Shown: positions 8,749-18,804 of the stretch, piece after piece
Numbering within the stretch: position 1 is the first letter of the stretch
Layout: each line of letters begins with the position of its first letter
Source: a virus
IMG/VR virus record: IMGVR_UViG_3300005511_000807
Coordinates: 1-22,624 of that record
Length of the DNA: 22,624 bases
Reading direction: 5' to 3' (one strand)
Position numbers and translations under genes: made by a program
The notes under the pieces: generated by a model
Told to the model about the DNA's origin: nothing
Seen by the model: only the letters and a program-made list of their open reading frames with translations
Database searches by the model: none

Positions 8749-8797
8749 GGGCTGCTGCGTTTTTTTATCCACAAGGCTGCTACCCGCGGCCTTTTTT
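8736..8797 (+). terminator. Tandem terminator-like hairpins before the tail fibre gene
   Basis: The first is weak: GCAGC (8736-8740) with GCTGC (8754-8758), then a T-run from 8760. The second is stronger: AAGGCTGC with GCGGCCTT (8773-8793, one G-T pair, five-base loop) followed by T and C residues. Together they separate the baseplate genes from the fibre genes. Confidence 0.6.
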
Positions 8798-14726: not shown

Positions 14727-15139
14727 TGGTTATCGCATTTCTAAGCGGCCTGCTATTTGGCCTTGGCCTGATTATCTCTGGCATGGCCAACCCCGCCAAA
14801 GTGTTGGGTTTTCTGGATTTAGCCGGAAAATGGGATCCTTCGCTGATATTCGTCATGTGCGGAGCCATCGCGGTAGGGTTTTTTGCGTTTTTATATGCCG
14901 GCCGTCGTAAAACGACTTTGCTCGGCACTGAATTGAAATTGCCCACTGCAACTAAAATCGATCGCCGCTTGGTAATCGGGTCGATATTATTCGGCGCAGG
15001 CTGGGGAATTGCCGGTTTTTGCCCTGGACCTGCTCTGGTAGGGCTAGGAATGGGCTTGCCGAAGGCTATTTTGTTCGTGCTGGCGATGCTGGCCGGCATG
15101 GGGATTTTCGAGTTGCTCGAACGCCGGCGCGGTGGATAA
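14726..15139 (+). CDS. YeeE/YedE-family membrane protein, second half-transporter
   Basis: The 137-residue partner of the preceding gene has membrane segments at about 3-20, 40-58, 83-97 and 108-128. It carries the conserved IAGFCPGPALVGLG motif, with C99 as the expected sulfur-relay cysteine, and the N-terminal signature GLGLIISGMANPAKVLGFLD. Together the two half-proteins are expected to import a sulfur-containing ion such as thiosulfate, or to handle sulfane sulfur; the exact substrate is not shown by sequence. The start ATG overlaps the upstream stop by one base. Its TAA stop lies within the left end of the dispersed element at 15132, whose hairpin may serve as terminator. Confidence 0.9.
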   Translation: MVIAFLSGLLFGLGLIISGMANPAKVLGFLDLAGKWDPSLIFVMCGAIAVGFFAFLYAGRRKTTLLGTELKLPTATKIDRRLVIGSILFGAGWGIAGFCPGPALVGLGMGLPKAILFVLAMLAGMGIFELLERRRGG

Positions 15140-15250
15140 GTTACCGCTGCGACAAAATTGCGCAGCGGTCTATTTTGCTTTTGAAACAGCAACTTAGCGT
15201 TGTCCAGTCCGGCTTGTTAACAAGCTTATCCACAGAATTTGTTAACAACC
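15132..15250 (+). repeat. Dispersed intergenic element, copy 1
   Basis: The element is 119 bp. GTGGATAA (15132-15139) forms the left edge and contains the TAA stop of the transporter gene. A hairpin CCGCTGCG / CGCAGCGG (15144-15151 with 15161-15168, loop ACAAAATTG) is followed by T-rich DNA. The right block has two TTGTTAACAA palindromes (15214-15223 and 15239-15248) flanking TTATCCACA (15226-15234), a perfect DnaA-box 9-mer. The same architecture recurs at 17249-17366 in the same orientation; the right 37 bases differ at only two positions. Confidence 0.85.
15144..15182 (+). terminator. Terminator-like hairpin after the YeeE pair, within element copy 1
   Basis: A perfect 8-bp stem (15144-15151 / 15161-15168) with a nine-base loop is followed by TCTATTTTGCTTTT. 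It starts four bases after the transporter stop. The interrupted T-run makes it a moderate terminator. Confidence 0.55.
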
Positions 15251-15265
15251 CGGACTTTGTATCGA

Positions 15266-17200
15266 TCAGCGCAAGCCGGGCATCACCTGCACCTCGACGC
15301 CGGAGTACATCGCCGGTGCGTGATACACGCGTTGCGTGGCCTTCTGGAAGTCCTCGGGCTTGGCCTTTGGAATGTCCACGAAGGTTTGCGGATTCAAGTC
15401 CACCAGCGGGAACCACGAACTCTGGATTTGCACCATGATGCGGTGGCCGCGCCGGAAAGTGTGGTTGACGTCGCTCATCGCGTAGTTGACCGCTTCCACC
15501 TTGCCCGGCGTGAACGGCTCCGGTTTTTCGAAGCTGTTGCGGAACTTGCCGCGCAGCGGATCGCCGCGCACCAGCTGCTGGTAGCCGGCCATGGTCAGGG
15601 TCGGCTTCGGCACATCGGAGCCGCGTTCCTCGTCGCCGCTACCCGGATACTCGGCCGGATAGACGTCGATCAGCTTGACGACCCAGTCGGCATCGGTGCC
15701 GGTGGTGGAGATGAACAACTTGGGCTTGACCGGCCCGGCCAGCGTGATGTCCTCTTCCAGCACTTCGCTGCGATAGGTCAGCACGTCCGGGCGCGACGAC
15801 GCGAAGCGCTGGTCGCCGACCATGTATTCCTGCGGCGCGCCCTGCGCCGGATAGGCCGTGAACGGCACCGGCTTGCGCGGATCGGCCACGTATTCGTCGT
15901 AGGCTTCGCCGGCGGCCGGCTGCTTCCAGCTCAGCGTGCCGTTCGGTCCGAGGAACAGCGTGCGCGCCTGCGTTTGCTTGGGCGGCCAGGCGGCGTAGTT
16001 GCGCCAGACATTGCTGCCCGTCTCGAAAGCATACACTTCCGACACGTTCTTGTTCGCCACGCCTTTCAGGTGTTGTTCGAAGAACGGATACAGGATATTG
16101 CTGCGGAATTGCTCGCCGGTCTTGGCATCGAACTTGACGTAGCCGAGGGTTTTGCCGTCGGCGCGGCCCCAGGCGCCATGCGACCACGGGCCCATCACCA
16201 GGCCGTTGTAGATGCCGGGATTGTTGCGCTTGATGCTGCTGTAGGTGGTCAGCGGGCCTTGCAGGTCTTCGGCGTCATACCAGCCGCCCACGGTCAGCAC
16301 GGCGGCCTTGATGTTCTTCAGGTGCGGCGCGATGTTGCGGGTCTTCCAGAATTCGTCGTAGGTCGAGTGCTCGATGGTCGGCTGCAGCAGCGCGCGCTGT
16401 TTCGCCGACATGGTGCCGAGGATGTTGGACAGCGTCAGGTGCTTGAGGAAGAACTCATAGCCGTCGGCGGTGCCGTAGTCGAAGCGGTCCCAGGTTTTCG
16501 GCAGCGGCGTCGGATTTTCCGCTTCCACGAAGGCCGAGTAGAAATCGAAGTTCGCTGCCAGCATGAAGGCGCCGCCGTGATACGAGTCGTCGTTCATGAA
16601 CAAGTCGGTGACGGGCGCCTGCGGCGACGCCGCCTTGATCGCCGGATGCGAATCGATGATGCTGGCCGACGTGTAGAAACCCGGATACGAGGTGCCCAGG
16701 ATACCGACCTTGCCGTTGTTGTTGGCGACGTTCTTCAGCAGCCACTCGACGGTGTCGTGCATGTCTTCGCTTTCGTTGCCCTGGCCCTTGGCGCGCTTGG
16801 GCGCAACGTGCGGTGTCATCTCGACCCATTTGCCTTCGGACATATAGCGTCCGCGCACGTCCTGCTTGACGAAGATGTAGCCGCTGTTCTCGAAGTCCTG
16901 CGACGGGCCGATGTGTTCGGGGTAGAAGTCGACGCCGTAGTGCAGCTCGCCGCCCGACTGCACGCCCGCGCTGTACGGCGTGCGCTGGATCAGGAAGGGA
17001 TAGGTCTTGCCGGCATCCTTGGGTACGTACACGGCGGTGAACAGGCGCACGCCGTCGCGCATCGGGATGCGGAATTCGTACTTGGTGTAGTGCTCGCGCA
17101 GGCTGTATTTCGGCGGGCCGCCGGCATCGGCGGCGCCGGCCTGGACGGAGAGGCAGCCCAGCATCAGGGCGAGGGCAAGTGCGGTGAGACGGGGTTTCAT
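15266..17200 (-). CDS. Exported CocE/NonD-family serine hydrolase
   Basis: This 644-residue alpha/beta-hydrolase is of the CocE/NonD (X-Pro dipeptidyl-peptidase S15-like) type. It begins with a Sec signal peptide (MKPRLTALALALMLGCLSVQ, cleavage after AGA near 23). The start at 17200 is chosen because AAGGA lies four to five bases upstream and the signal peptide begins there; an in-frame ATG at 17227 would add nine residues. The triad is visible: nucleophile S171 in GILGTSYPGF, D309 in VGGWYDAED and H341 in MGPWSHGAWG. The C-terminal third is the jelly-roll domain of the family (FTPGKVEAVNYAMSDVNHTF; HRIMVQIQSSWFPLVDLNPQ). Members act on esters, beta-lactam side chains, cocaine or dipeptides, so the natural substrate is unknown. 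It is flanked by the two element copies. Confidence 0.92.
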   Translation of the reverse strand: MKPRLTALALALMLGCLSVQAGAADAGGPPKYSLREHYTKYEFRIPMRDGVRLFTAVYVPKDAGKTYPFLIQRTPYSAGVQSGGELHYGVDFYPEHIGPSQDFENSGYIFVKQDVRGRYMSEGKWVEMTPHVAPKRAKGQGNESEDMHDTVEWLLKNVANNNGKVGILGTSYPGFYTSASIIDSHPAIKAASPQAPVTDLFMNDDSYHGGAFMLAANFDFYSAFVEAENPTPLPKTWDRFDYGTADGYEFFLKHLTLSNILGTMSAKQRALLQPTIEHSTYDEFWKTRNIAPHLKNIKAAVLTVGGWYDAEDLQGPLTTYSSIKRNNPGIYNGLVMGPWSHGAWGRADGKTLGYVKFDAKTGEQFRSNILYPFFEQHLKGVANKNVSEVYAFETGSNVWRNYAAWPPKQTQARTLFLGPNGTLSWKQPAAGEAYDEYVADPRKPVPFTAYPAQGAPQEYMVGDQRFASSRPDVLTYRSEVLEEDITLAGPVKPKLFISTTGTDADWVVKLIDVYPAEYPGSGDEERGSDVPKPTLTMAGYQQLVRGDPLRGKFRNSFEKPEPFTPGKVEAVNYAMSDVNHTFRRGHRIMVQIQSSWFPLVDLNPQTFVDIPKAKPEDFQKATQRVYHAPAMYSGVEVQVMPGLR

Positions 17201-17248
17201 GAGTTCCTTGTTGGATGAAGAAGTCAAAACCCGCCTAGTGTAATGCCA

Positions 17249-17366
17249 GTGGATAACTTTGACTGCGACAATTTTGCGCAGCCCTTATTTTTCCTTTGAA
17301 AACATCAGCTTGGCATCGGCGCCGCCGCCTTGTTAACAGCCTTATCCACAGAATTTGTTAACAACC
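17249..17366 (+). repeat. Dispersed intergenic element, copy 2
   Basis: This is a 118-bp relative of 15132-15250. GTGGATAA is at 17249-17256. Hairpin CTGCG / CGCAG (17263-17267 with 17277-17281) has the nine-base loop ACAATTTTG and is followed by T-rich DNA. TTGTTAACAG is at 17330-17339, the perfect DnaA-box 9-mer TTATCCACA at 17342-17350 and TTGTTAACAA at 17355-17364. The central 40 bases are diverged. It lies between the aldehyde dehydrogenase stop and the hydrolase start. Confidence 0.85.
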
Positions 17367-17370
17367 GCGC

Positions 17371-18804
17371 TTACAGCATCGGCAGCTTCAGGCTGTCCAC
17401 CACCATGCGTATCAGGCGCAGGCGGCCCGAGGTGTAGGGCGGGAAGAACAGCTTGATGAGCATCAGCGGCGAGGCGCGCAGCACCGCGCGCTCGTGCGAG
17501 AAAGCCTTGAAGCCGTACTCGCCGTGCGCACTGCCCATGCCCGAATTGTTGACGCCGCCAAATGGCAGATTGCCGTGCGCGAAATGCGCGACGCAGTGAT
17601 TGACGCAGGCGCCGCCGGAGCTGGTCTGCTTGAGCACCTTGTCGATGTTGGCCTGGCGCGTGCTCCACACGTACAAGGCCAGCGGCTTGGGCGCGGCGTT
17701 GATGGTGGCGATCACCTGGTCCAGCTCGCGGTATTCGATGATGGGCAGCAGCGGTCCGAAAATTTCTTCCGACAGGATGGCGGCGCCGGCCGGTATCTGT
17801 TCGATCAGCGTCGGCGCGATGTAGCACTGCGCCTCGTCGACTTCGCCGCCGGTGTGTACCACGGCGCCACGTTGCAGCGCATCCGCCAGCAGGCCAGCCA
17901 GGCGTTGCGTGTGGCGCTGGTTGACCACGCGTGTCAGATCGGGGCTCTGCTTTTGCGCGGCCGCGTCGGCGCCGTAGCGCTGTTGCAGCACCGTGCGGCA
18001 GGCGGCGATGAAGGCGGGCTTGACGCTGGCATGCACATACACATGGTCGGGCGCCACGCAGGTCTGGCCGTTGTTGAGGAACTTCCCCCACATCAGCGTT
18101 TCCGCCGCCAGTTGCAGGTTGGCGCTCTCGTCGACGATGGTGGGCGACTTGCCGCCCAGTTCCAGCGTCACGCTGGCCAGGTGCTGGGCGGCGGCGGTCA
18201 TCACCAGCTTGCCGACCGACGGCGAACCGGTGAAGAAAATATGATCGAAGGGCAGCTGGAGCAGGGCGTGCGAAGTCGGCTGGCTGCCTTCGAACAGCGC
18301 CACTTCGTCGGCCGGGAACACGTCGGCGATGATGCGCGCCATCAGCGCCGACACGGCAGGCGTCATCTCCGACGGCTTGATGATGGCCGTGTTGCCGGCG
18401 GCCAGCGCCGACACCAGCGGGCCGAAGCACAAGCTCAGCGGATAGTTCCACGGCGCGATGATCAGCACCCGTCCGCGCGGCTGGTACTGCACCGACGCGT
18501 AGGTGCCCAGCATGGTGGTGGTGGGCCAGTGGCGGCGCGGCTTCATCCAGCGCTTGAGCGCGCCCAGCACCTGGCGGATTTCCTCCATCACCGGCAGGAA
18601 CTCCGATGCTTCGACCTCGGCCGGGGACTTGCGGTAGTCGCTCTCGAAGGCCGCATAGAACGCTTCGCGCTGCGCCATCAGCGCGTCGCGCAGGCGCTTG
18701 ACCCGGGCGATGCGCTCGGCGGCGGCCGATGCGCGCCAGCGTAGCGCGGTGGCCTGCTGGGCGTCGAAAGCCGCTTTGATCTGCTGCACGTCCGCTTCGT
18801 TCAT
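17371..18804 (-). CDS. Aldehyde dehydrogenase, coniferyl-aldehyde-dehydrogenase type
   Basis: This 477-residue NAD(P)-dependent aldehyde dehydrogenase is of the short class-3/coniferyl type and has no N-terminal extension. Landmarks are the cofactor-binding IIAPWNYPL (115-123) and KPSE (143-146), the nucleotide-fold turn FTGSPSVGKL (191-200), general-base E215 in TLELGGKSP and nucleophile C249 in NNGQTCVAPDHV. Later come EEIFGPLLPI and the PFGGVNNSGMG closing motif. The hydrophobic C-terminus (LMLIKLFFPPYT) is typical of the membrane-touching class-3 group. The preferred substrate, an aromatic or long-chain aldehyde, is inferred. The start has GGGGGA eight bases upstream. A promoter with an inverted-repeat spacer lies between it and the co-oriented LysR gene. 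Confidence 0.93.
   Translation of the reverse strand: MNEADVQQIKAAFDAQQATALRWRASAAAERIARVKRLRDALMAQREAFYAAFESDYRKSPAEVEASEFLPVMEEIRQVLGALKRWMKPRRHWPTTTMLGTYASVQYQPRGRVLIIAPWNYPLSLCFGPLVSALAAGNTAIIKPSEMTPAVSALMARIIADVFPADEVALFEGSQPTSHALLQLPFDHIFFTGSPSVGKLVMTAAAQHLASVTLELGGKSPTIVDESANLQLAAETLMWGKFLNNGQTCVAPDHVYVHASVKPAFIAACRTVLQQRYGADAAAQKQSPDLTRVVNQRHTQRLAGLLADALQRGAVVHTGGEVDEAQCYIAPTLIEQIPAGAAILSEEIFGPLLPIIEYRELDQVIATINAAPKPLALYVWSTRQANIDKVLKQTSSGGACVNHCVAHFAHGNLPFGGVNNSGMGSAHGEYGFKAFSHERAVLRASPLMLIKLFFPPYTSGRLRLIRMVVDSLKLPML

Follow-up and report, generated by a model that had tools for sequence, protein, structure and literature searches.

What is the role of a short element that lies in two copies, separated by one peptidase open reading frame (ORF; 2.1 kb), in the IMG/VR virus record IMGVR_UViG_3300005511_000807? 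The window, which here denotes the whole stretch of 22,624 nucleotides from that record, holds both copies in the same orientation, and each carries an exact DnaA box, TTATCCACA, between two GTTAAC palindromes (Table 1). These elements, termed solos here, are probably sites akin to the DnaA-reactivating sequences (DARSs) of Escherichia coli, which would make them promoters of ADP release from DnaA and a third class of such sites in their bacterial order; this is the best explanation of the observations below. DnaA reactivation is a process worked out in E. coli. Among the three classes, the solos themselves are the one to which a reactivating function would be assigned with least confidence.

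Spacing of the Core

Read in reverse complement, the core of the element consists of a 9-mer, 5 bp, TGTGGATAA, 3 bp, and a second 9-mer, the same spacing that DARS1 and DARS2 of E. coli show in the MG1655 genome. DARS1 of MG1655 is TTATCCACT-5-TGTGGATAA-3-TGTGTATTA and DARS2 is TTATTCACC-5-TGTGGATAG-3-TGTGAAGAA. The window elements are TTGTTAACA-5-TGTGGATAA-3-TGTTAACAA, and a typical unit of the multi-core arrays described below is TTCTGCACA-5-TGTGGATAA-3-TGTTAGCAA. Reviews state that both DARSs share the same spacing of boxes I to III, with box I opposite to boxes II and III (PMC5742627), and that the head-to-head box pair is the essential mark of a DARS (PMC5742627, PMC10380432). The cores found here have boxes II and III as a direct pair 3 bp apart and boxes I and II head-to-head 5 bp apart, with the direction of boxes I and III ambiguous in the solos.

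Thirteen E. coli DnaA double boxes listed from chromatin immunoprecipitation (PMC11317965) served as a control and were scored for an inverted box at gap 5. DARS1 matches at 8/9 positions and the two double boxes of DARS2 at 7/9 and 6/9, while the other 10 double boxes score 1–4. The 6/9 match belongs to the second DARS2 double box, on the mutH side (L105).

The gap between boxes II and I was surveyed in 12 one-contig related genomes, several of them close relatives, by searching for TTATCCACA with TGTNNNNAA 0–12 bp behind it. This yielded 66 matches, with 57 at gap 5, four at gap 3 that also read as gap 5, and five at gap 12 that are candidate origins; no match occurs at another spacing alone. 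The same pattern read backwards has seven matches in those 12 genomes. The full core pattern is present in 15/15 one-contig genomes and in 120/399 genomes of the order, and its backward control is found in 0/399.

Syntenic Loci in the Order

The core recurs at particular loci. Gene neighborhoods were read from 60 core regions among the matches listed, in genomes of the order outside the family draw, some of which may nevertheless belong to the family. Thirty regions lie beside xseA, 13 beside hemE and priA, three beside priA alone, and one at mutL-uvrC, and nearly all of the xseA regions also contain exbB/tolQ-like or lpxK genes. The xseA, hemE, priA, lpxK, mutL, and uvrC assignments passed NCBIfam cut-offs; the ExbB/TolQ, ExbD/TolR, and SodB labels failed them. 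The hemE-priA core is also found in G142, G219, G252, and Rugamonas rivuli (G001). The uvrC-mutL interval of G411 holds a DARS-type core (L197:3040, L133:5440).

Oxalobacteraceae carry an array at the xseA place. All 21 genomes reached via named loci contain, among the matches listed, solo-type matches to R1, a sequence-only model used to search beyond the solo scan pattern, together with one cluster of weaker matches ~130–310 bp apart. Ten sampled clusters from ten named Oxalobacteraceae hold 4–7 strict cores each. An exbB/tolQ-like gene lies within 300 bp of all ten arrays and xseA within 250 bp of eight; the exceptions are L085, with no xseA match in the sampled stretch, and L089, with xseA 4.9 kb away. 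The xseA-proximal array unit (e.g., L081:8773) often has TTACGCACA as box III. Six array cores have a reversed IHF site at gap 84, as in single-core genomes, which suggests that this unit may be the ancestral one.

This gene context could also reflect DnaA-controlled transcription of the neighboring genes, a rather improbable reading. It draws on the cores that adjoin xseA, hemE, and priA and on the fact that in E. coli, too, the DARSs precede genes, DARS1 being upstream of uvrB and DARS2 of mutH (PMC11317965). A promoter, however, needs no array of cores, window copy 1 lies between convergent genes, and a search covering promoters of the sigma-70 type found none at 14900–17500.

Chromosomal Position and Orientation

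Both dnaA and dif were mapped in the genomes of relatives. Candidate origins were located in 8/27 genomes by pattern search, and local search added G142 and G293. They display DnaA boxes, TACTACTA-type repeats, and AT-rich DNA (L224:about 5000, L226:5083, L227:4880, L228:4815, L234:15400-15900, L245:16500-17000). In nine one-contig genomes the candidate oriC lies 0.3–0.6 Mb from dnaA, and it gives replication arms equal within ~7% in eight of them, G167 excepted. The final mapping comprised the candidate-origin genomes and four genomes with near-equal arms when dnaA was used.

The xseA class lies at 0.22–0.72 of the arm in 12 genomes, ten of them at 0.44–0.72 (exceptions 0.22 and 0.29), and so resembles DARS2 in its conserved position away from both oriC and ter. 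Solos are origin-distal, at 0.67, 0.74, and 0.78 in the three measurable genomes, and the hemE-priA class lies at 0.05–0.13 in 11 genomes. The corresponding E. coli values, calculated with an assumed dif position, are 0.41 for DARS2, 0.66 for DARS1, and 0.20 for datA. In E. coli the positions of the DARSs and datA matter (PMC5010248).

Orientation relative to replication is nearly uniform across the three classes: the strand of box II runs with the fork at 25/26 loci (xseA 11/12, solo 3/3, hemE-priA 11/11). These loci are not independent events, because the genomes share ancestry and an orientation relative to the fork survives symmetric inversions.

An earlier mapping that took dnaA as the origin was superseded once the gap-12 matches proved to be candidate origins at a distance from it. 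There, 19 of 22 genomes had the xseA class at 0.47–0.72 (exceptions 0.07, 0.29, and 0.38), with 20 co-oriented and two not, and among 19 genomes with the hemE-priA class 16 were anti-oriented and three co-oriented. Left out of the final mapping were G069, G277, G238, G287, G254, and G176, in which no origin was located, and G520, G539, G311, G445, G522, and G411, whose arms are unequal with dnaA as origin. Among these, G520 (xseA), G445, and G522 (both hemE/priA) are anti-oriented when dnaA is used.

The main rival explanation is pure DnaA titration or a datA-like role, in which the sites do no more than bind up DnaA, or else work with IHF to stimulate hydrolysis of ATP. The presence in each array of several strong boxes accompanied by IHF sites would suit it, as would the origin-proximal hemE-priA class, and the double box listed for datA, TTGTAAACA-3-TTATCCACA, resembles boxes III and II of the solos. 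Yet datA (4/9) and the other nine non-DARS double boxes lack an inverted box exactly 5 bp away, and titration needs no fixed head-to-head spacing kept at syntenic loci. Titration is thus unlikely, although it retains an appreciable share of the probability. The preliminary description, made from the window's sequence alone, had proposed a DnaA-titrating or nucleoid-organizing site; the connection with DnaA holds, and the spacing favors a DARS over titration.

Proposed Mechanism

If the solos and related cores are DARS-like sites, DnaA would occupy a strong central box II together with the weaker box III (direct, 3 bp) and box I (head-to-head, 5 bp). Head-to-head contact between the DnaA molecules on boxes I and II would promote loss of ADP, after which apo-DnaA would leave and reload ATP. 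The complex would take its shape from the Fis-like palindromic site, 50 bp away, and from an IHF site whose distance is fixed, just as DARS2 of E. coli relies on IHF and Fis. Across the order, such cores would act from two syntenic loci: xseA-exbB/tolQ, which is mid-replichore in most of the genomes mapped and amplified to an array in Oxalobacteraceae, and the origin-proximal hemE-priA. The window would hold the third class, solos duplicated around a peptidase gene and origin-distal.

A tentative wider picture, which may or may not prove right, is that beta-proteobacteria of the order run DnaA reactivation on two shared DARS sites, hemE-priA near the origin and xseA at mid-replichore, that in Oxalobacteraceae the latter has turned into an array of several units and origin-distal solos have joined it, and that the dose of these sites along the chromosome, nearly all fork-oriented, could time initiation in genomes of 5–7 Mb. 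If the sites work, the DARS would be a broader control system than is usually shown, and the natural arrays with differing unit numbers would offer a dose series on reactivating sites, their position, and initiation timing. The strict spacing also provides a simple pattern to find DARS candidates elsewhere.

Flanking Sites

Two kinds of flanking site lie at fixed distances from the core in most array and solo copies. Matches to the IHF consensus WATCAANNNNTTR with at most one mismatch were counted against mononucleotide shuffles. Upstream of the core they are present at 61/90 array cores (5.2 in shuffles), 52 of them at gap 17, and at 31/54 solos (1.9 in shuffles), 29 of them at gap 17. In the other orientation, the consensus is found at 27/34 single xseA cores (2.9 in shuffles; gaps 82–86) and at 21/21 hemE/priA cores (2.7 in shuffles; gaps 84–85). 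The IHF site 74 bp from the core of E. coli DARS2 has the orientation of the sites at the xseA and hemE cores and is about one helical turn short of 84.

The second site is a 15-bp AT-centered palindrome, GC-N3-W5-N3-GC, found at 57/90 array cores and 41/55 solo cores (0.2–1.0 expected, 0.6 for solos). Its gap from the core is 49–51 in all instances but two array ones. The palindrome resembles the Fis consensus, and this resemblance suggests a Fis-like site at which Fis may bind. A Fis-like protein is encoded in 15/15 genomes.

Solo Copies and Dispersal

Within the window, DnaA boxes with at most one mismatch number five, against 1.69 expected, a count reached in 1/100 shuffles. Its four GTTAAC sites, two per copy, are by themselves not unusual (12/100 shuffles). 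The record is a 22.6-kb virus contig, and the number of copies was therefore judged from relatives. A scan of genome contigs with the pattern GTTAAC-N2-8-TTATCCACA-N2-8-GTTAAC returned 47 stretches. By title, 39 of these are Oxalobacteraceae (Duganella, Rugamonas, a few Pseudoduganella, one Janthinobacterium, and two without a genus name), and they hold 44 further copies in which every core, from GTTAAC to GTTAAC, measures 31 nt. Chance is excluded because of this conservation. The other eight stretches have cores of 27–32 nt. The arrangement GTTAAC-TTATCCACA-GTTAAC also occurs in Halalkalibacter and Paenibacillus (L013, L015, L024, L042), where the surrounding DNA seems to contain many DnaA boxes and is possibly oriC.

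Copies are few and their locations recur. Clusters of ORFs around the copies are shared among most of the 39 stretches; L025, L029, L046, and L047 share no neighboring ORFs, and L016 and L036 have a common neighborhood of their own. Each genome has one to a few solos, at loci largely common to different genomes. R. rivuli has two solo copies 4.3 kb apart, one array, and its hemE-priA core. The solo class is known from Oxalobacteraceae contigs and from the genomes of the family of R. rivuli in the database, to which the R1 search was confined, and R1 matches (E ≤0.001, stricter filters) are present in 224/294 of these genomes. This family may be wider than Oxalobacteraceae, in the manner of the broad Burkholderiaceae of GTDB.

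Nineteen further stretches were sampled for dispersal: from G196, G245, G297, G088, G174, and G303, which were chosen for several R1 matches at 49–70 bits, from single places in G015 and G016, and from the hemE-type core of R. rivuli. The six chosen genomes have 2–3 sampled copies each at differing places, and many of these 16 places have an aligning counterpart in one of the other five genomes, which indicates several shared loci and not free scatter. Tandem sets occur in G221 and G167.

A short mobile or repeat element of the miniature inverted-repeat transposable element (MITE) or repetitive extragenic palindromic (REP) kind, with DnaA boxes in its ends, was part of the preliminary description and is now very improbable. 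Two similar copies 2.1 kb apart, the tandem sets, and the several places in the six chosen genomes speak for such an element; against it, copies are few per genome and loci are shared between genomes, and the solo pattern is found in 0 stretches of the viral-contig set, which may omit records close to the window. Instead of many copies at non-homologous sites, a single lineage has a few copies at several shared loci. The idea of a mobile unit therefore mostly falls away, while that of a conserved element with constrained ends is borne out.

Box Quality and Points against a Reactivating Function

Because the sets were chosen by patterns that partly fix the boxes, mean matches to the 9-bp DnaA consensus are best read within that limit. 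For boxes I, II, and III they are 6.0, 9.0, and 6.0 in solos; 6.8, 8.6, and 6.0 in arrays; 7.7, 8.9, and 7.4 in single xseA cores; and 8.1, 8.9, and 7.4 in hemE/priA cores. Twelve of the 42 distinct R1 matches do not contain the original pattern. In eleven of these the spacing is exact and the TT....ACA frames are retained although GTTAAC or box II varies, which is, on sequence grounds, how a DnaA box would be expected to vary; the twelfth has one base altered in box III.

Several observations weigh against the assignment of the solos and related cores as DARS-like sites. Direct DnaA-box pairs at 2–3 bp are a general feature of DnaA targets in E. coli (PMC11317965), which leaves box I as the one DARS-specific element, and an inverted box matching at 8/9 occurs in rpoH of E. 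coli, although at gap 4. Boxes I and III of the solos match the consensus at only 6/9 positions, and the near-palindromic TTGTTAACA makes their direction unreadable. The alignment of 46 copies, the window's two included, was gathered with a pattern that fixes GTTAAC and TTATCCACA, so their invariance is partly built in. No R1 match is found in 70/294 genomes of the family, the exact core is absent from 279/399 genomes of the order, and 13/60 core regions have no neighbor among the twelve query genes. By its position close to the origin, the hemE-priA class is nearer to E. coli datA than to either DARS.

The flanking sites raise further points of this kind. The IHF-like sites of the window copies carry two mismatches, and the palindrome occurs in a minority of single xseA (10/34) and hemE/priA (3/21) cores. 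E. coli DARS2 has a different order, with one-mismatch IHF sites 58 and 74 bp from the core, and its core-IHF-Fis spacing is not matched by the arrangements found here, which are IHF at 17 then the palindrome at 50, or the palindrome then IHF at 84. A search for G-N4-W5-N4-C near 50 bp in E. coli DARS1 and DARS2 found none.

A further point concerning the solos is that 15/18 R1 matches in the dispersal sample (G196, G245, G297, G088, G174, G303; L252–L267) approximate TTGTTAACA-3-TTTTCCACA-5-CGTTAACAA. The spacing and GTTAAC are kept in them, but box I becomes TTGTTAACG and loses its DnaA frame. The remaining matches are one with AGTTAACAA and those of G015 and G016, with TTATCACCA as box I. 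Retention of palindromic GTTAAC on both sides where box II is TTTTCCACA and box I is TTGTTAACG is what a GTTAAC-binding protein acting with DnaA on the solos would produce, the flanking motifs being its sites and not DnaA boxes. Such a protein is nonetheless a slim prospect, as 11/12 other variants change GTTAAC yet keep TT....ACA, and the array, xseA, and hemE/priA cores share the spacing and DnaA-box-like flanks, mostly without GTTAAC.

Comparison with Known Systems

The cores share with DARS2 (rppH-mutH) the 9-5-9-3-9 layout, an inverted box I, IHF consensus sites on the box III side, a mid-replichore location in the xseA class, a box II strand that runs with the fork, and the presence of a Fis-like protein. 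Unlike DARS2, they form multi-unit arrays in Oxalobacteraceae, have IHF sites at ~17 or 84 bp and a palindrome at 50 bp, and lie beside other genes. The solos resemble DARS1 (bioD-uvrB) in core spacing and in arm position, and differ from it in their opposite fork-relative orientation, in a box I farther from consensus (8/9 in DARS1), and in the IHF-like site and palindrome that many of them have. No IHF match with at most one mismatch was found in the intergenic region of E. coli DARS1, and the site in the window copies is degenerate. E. coli datA is similar in having DnaA boxes, an IHF site, and a like sequence of boxes III and II, but lacks the inverted box at 5 bp. Bacillus subtilis likewise has DnaA-box clusters outside oriC (PMC13220808).

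DARSs outside the gamma-proteobacteria are already mentioned in the literature, where accounts differ. One paper describes conservation of the DARS2 core and of Fis in those gamma-proteobacteria that are relatives of E. coli (PMC4245941), another extends conservation of the layout of DARS2 to beta- or gamma-proteobacteria close to E. coli (PMC5742627), and a third reports DARS-like sequences in many proteobacteria (PMC10380432). In literature searches, mostly at title level, neither the xseA, hemE-priA, and solo sites nor the arrays were found described. Searches on Burkholderia, Neisseria, Ralstonia, and Bordetella found nothing on DARSs in beta-proteobacteria among the papers listed, a weak negative. 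Judged by titles and abstract openings, the papers on DnaA-reactivating sequences deal with E. coli or with the Thermotoga origin or are reviews of a general kind, and none names beta-proteobacteria there.

The Window and Its Features

The left part of the window is of phage origin in appearance, with phage tail domains in 3/4 ORFs tested (sheath C-terminal, baseplate V with Apex, and baseplate J), and the right part encodes sulphur-transport/DUF6691, S15 peptidase, aldehyde dehydrogenase, and LysR regulator proteins. Both copies are host DNA beside prophage genes. The host is most likely a Rugamonas, because the right flank is ~96% identical to loci of R. rivuli and R. aquatica (R. rivuli, 95.75% over 7.4 kb). 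In these two species, two peptidase ORFs (4.3 kb) lie between the solo copies (L090 6295-10735), versus one in the window.

The two copies contain all the parts that had been listed for them, and a repeat search pairs 15147–15250 with 17263–17366 at 78% identity. Inverted near-DnaA boxes with one mismatch lie at 15131–15139 and 17248–17256. The start of copy 1 overlaps the stop codon of the DUF6691 gene, and convergent genes flank this copy; copy 2 has the start of the peptidase gene on one side and the stop of the aldehyde dehydrogenase gene on the other. Their right ends are 15 and 4 bases from the stops of minus-strand genes, as had been noted.

Table 1. Features of the two solo copies in the window.
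Feature	Position	Strand	Remark
Solo DARS-like element (probable), copy 1 (class B)	15132–15250	+	R1 match of 96.4 bits at 15130–15250; copy itself among the R1 source sequences
Left edge GTGGATAA, inverted near-DnaA box, overlapping stop of upstream gene	15132–15139	-	In 38/55 solos
15-bp palindromic site GCGACAAAATTGCGC, putatively Fis-like, 50 bp from core; the hairpin of the preliminary description	15149–15163	.	GC-N3-W5-N3-GC
Degenerate IHF-like site, 2 mismatches to WATCAANNNNTTR	15183–15195	+	Read from sequence
DnaA box III position, TTGTTAACA, 6/9 to consensus	15214–15222	+	
DnaA box II, TTATCCACA, exact	15226–15234	+	
DnaA box I position, TTGTTAACA, inverted, 5 bp from box II	15240–15248	-	
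Solo DARS-like element (probable), copy 2 (class B)	17249–17366	+	R1 match of 95.6 bits at 17247–17366; also an R1 source sequence
Left edge GTGGATAA, copy 2	17249–17256	-	
15-bp palindromic site GCGACAATTTTGCGC, 50 bp from core, copy 2	17265–17279	.	
Degenerate IHF-like site, 2 mismatches, 17 bp from core, copy 2	17300–17312	+	Read from sequence
DnaA box III position, TTGTTAACA, copy 2	17330–17338	+	
DnaA box II, TTATCCACA, exact, copy 2	17342–17350	+	
DnaA box I position, inverted, 5 bp from box II, copy 2	17356–17364	-	

The hairpin with a nine-base loop reported earlier exists in copy 1, where it has a 9-bp stem, and is better read as the 15-bp palindrome, whose distance from the core is fixed at 50 bp. 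An alternative in which the hairpin is the functional part of a non-coding RNA or of a terminator pair would account for the folding of copy 1 as single-stranded DNA, which is better than that of shuffles (z -4.3; copy 2, -2.2). This is the least probable of the explanations weighed: the window has no Rfam match at the gathering score, two-sided change is seen in 1/14 predicted pairs, no terminator-like site is found at 14900–17500, and in several copies the hairpin has decayed although the core is kept. The window also has a third exact DnaA box, at 8765–8773, between two ORFs of the prophage tail region.

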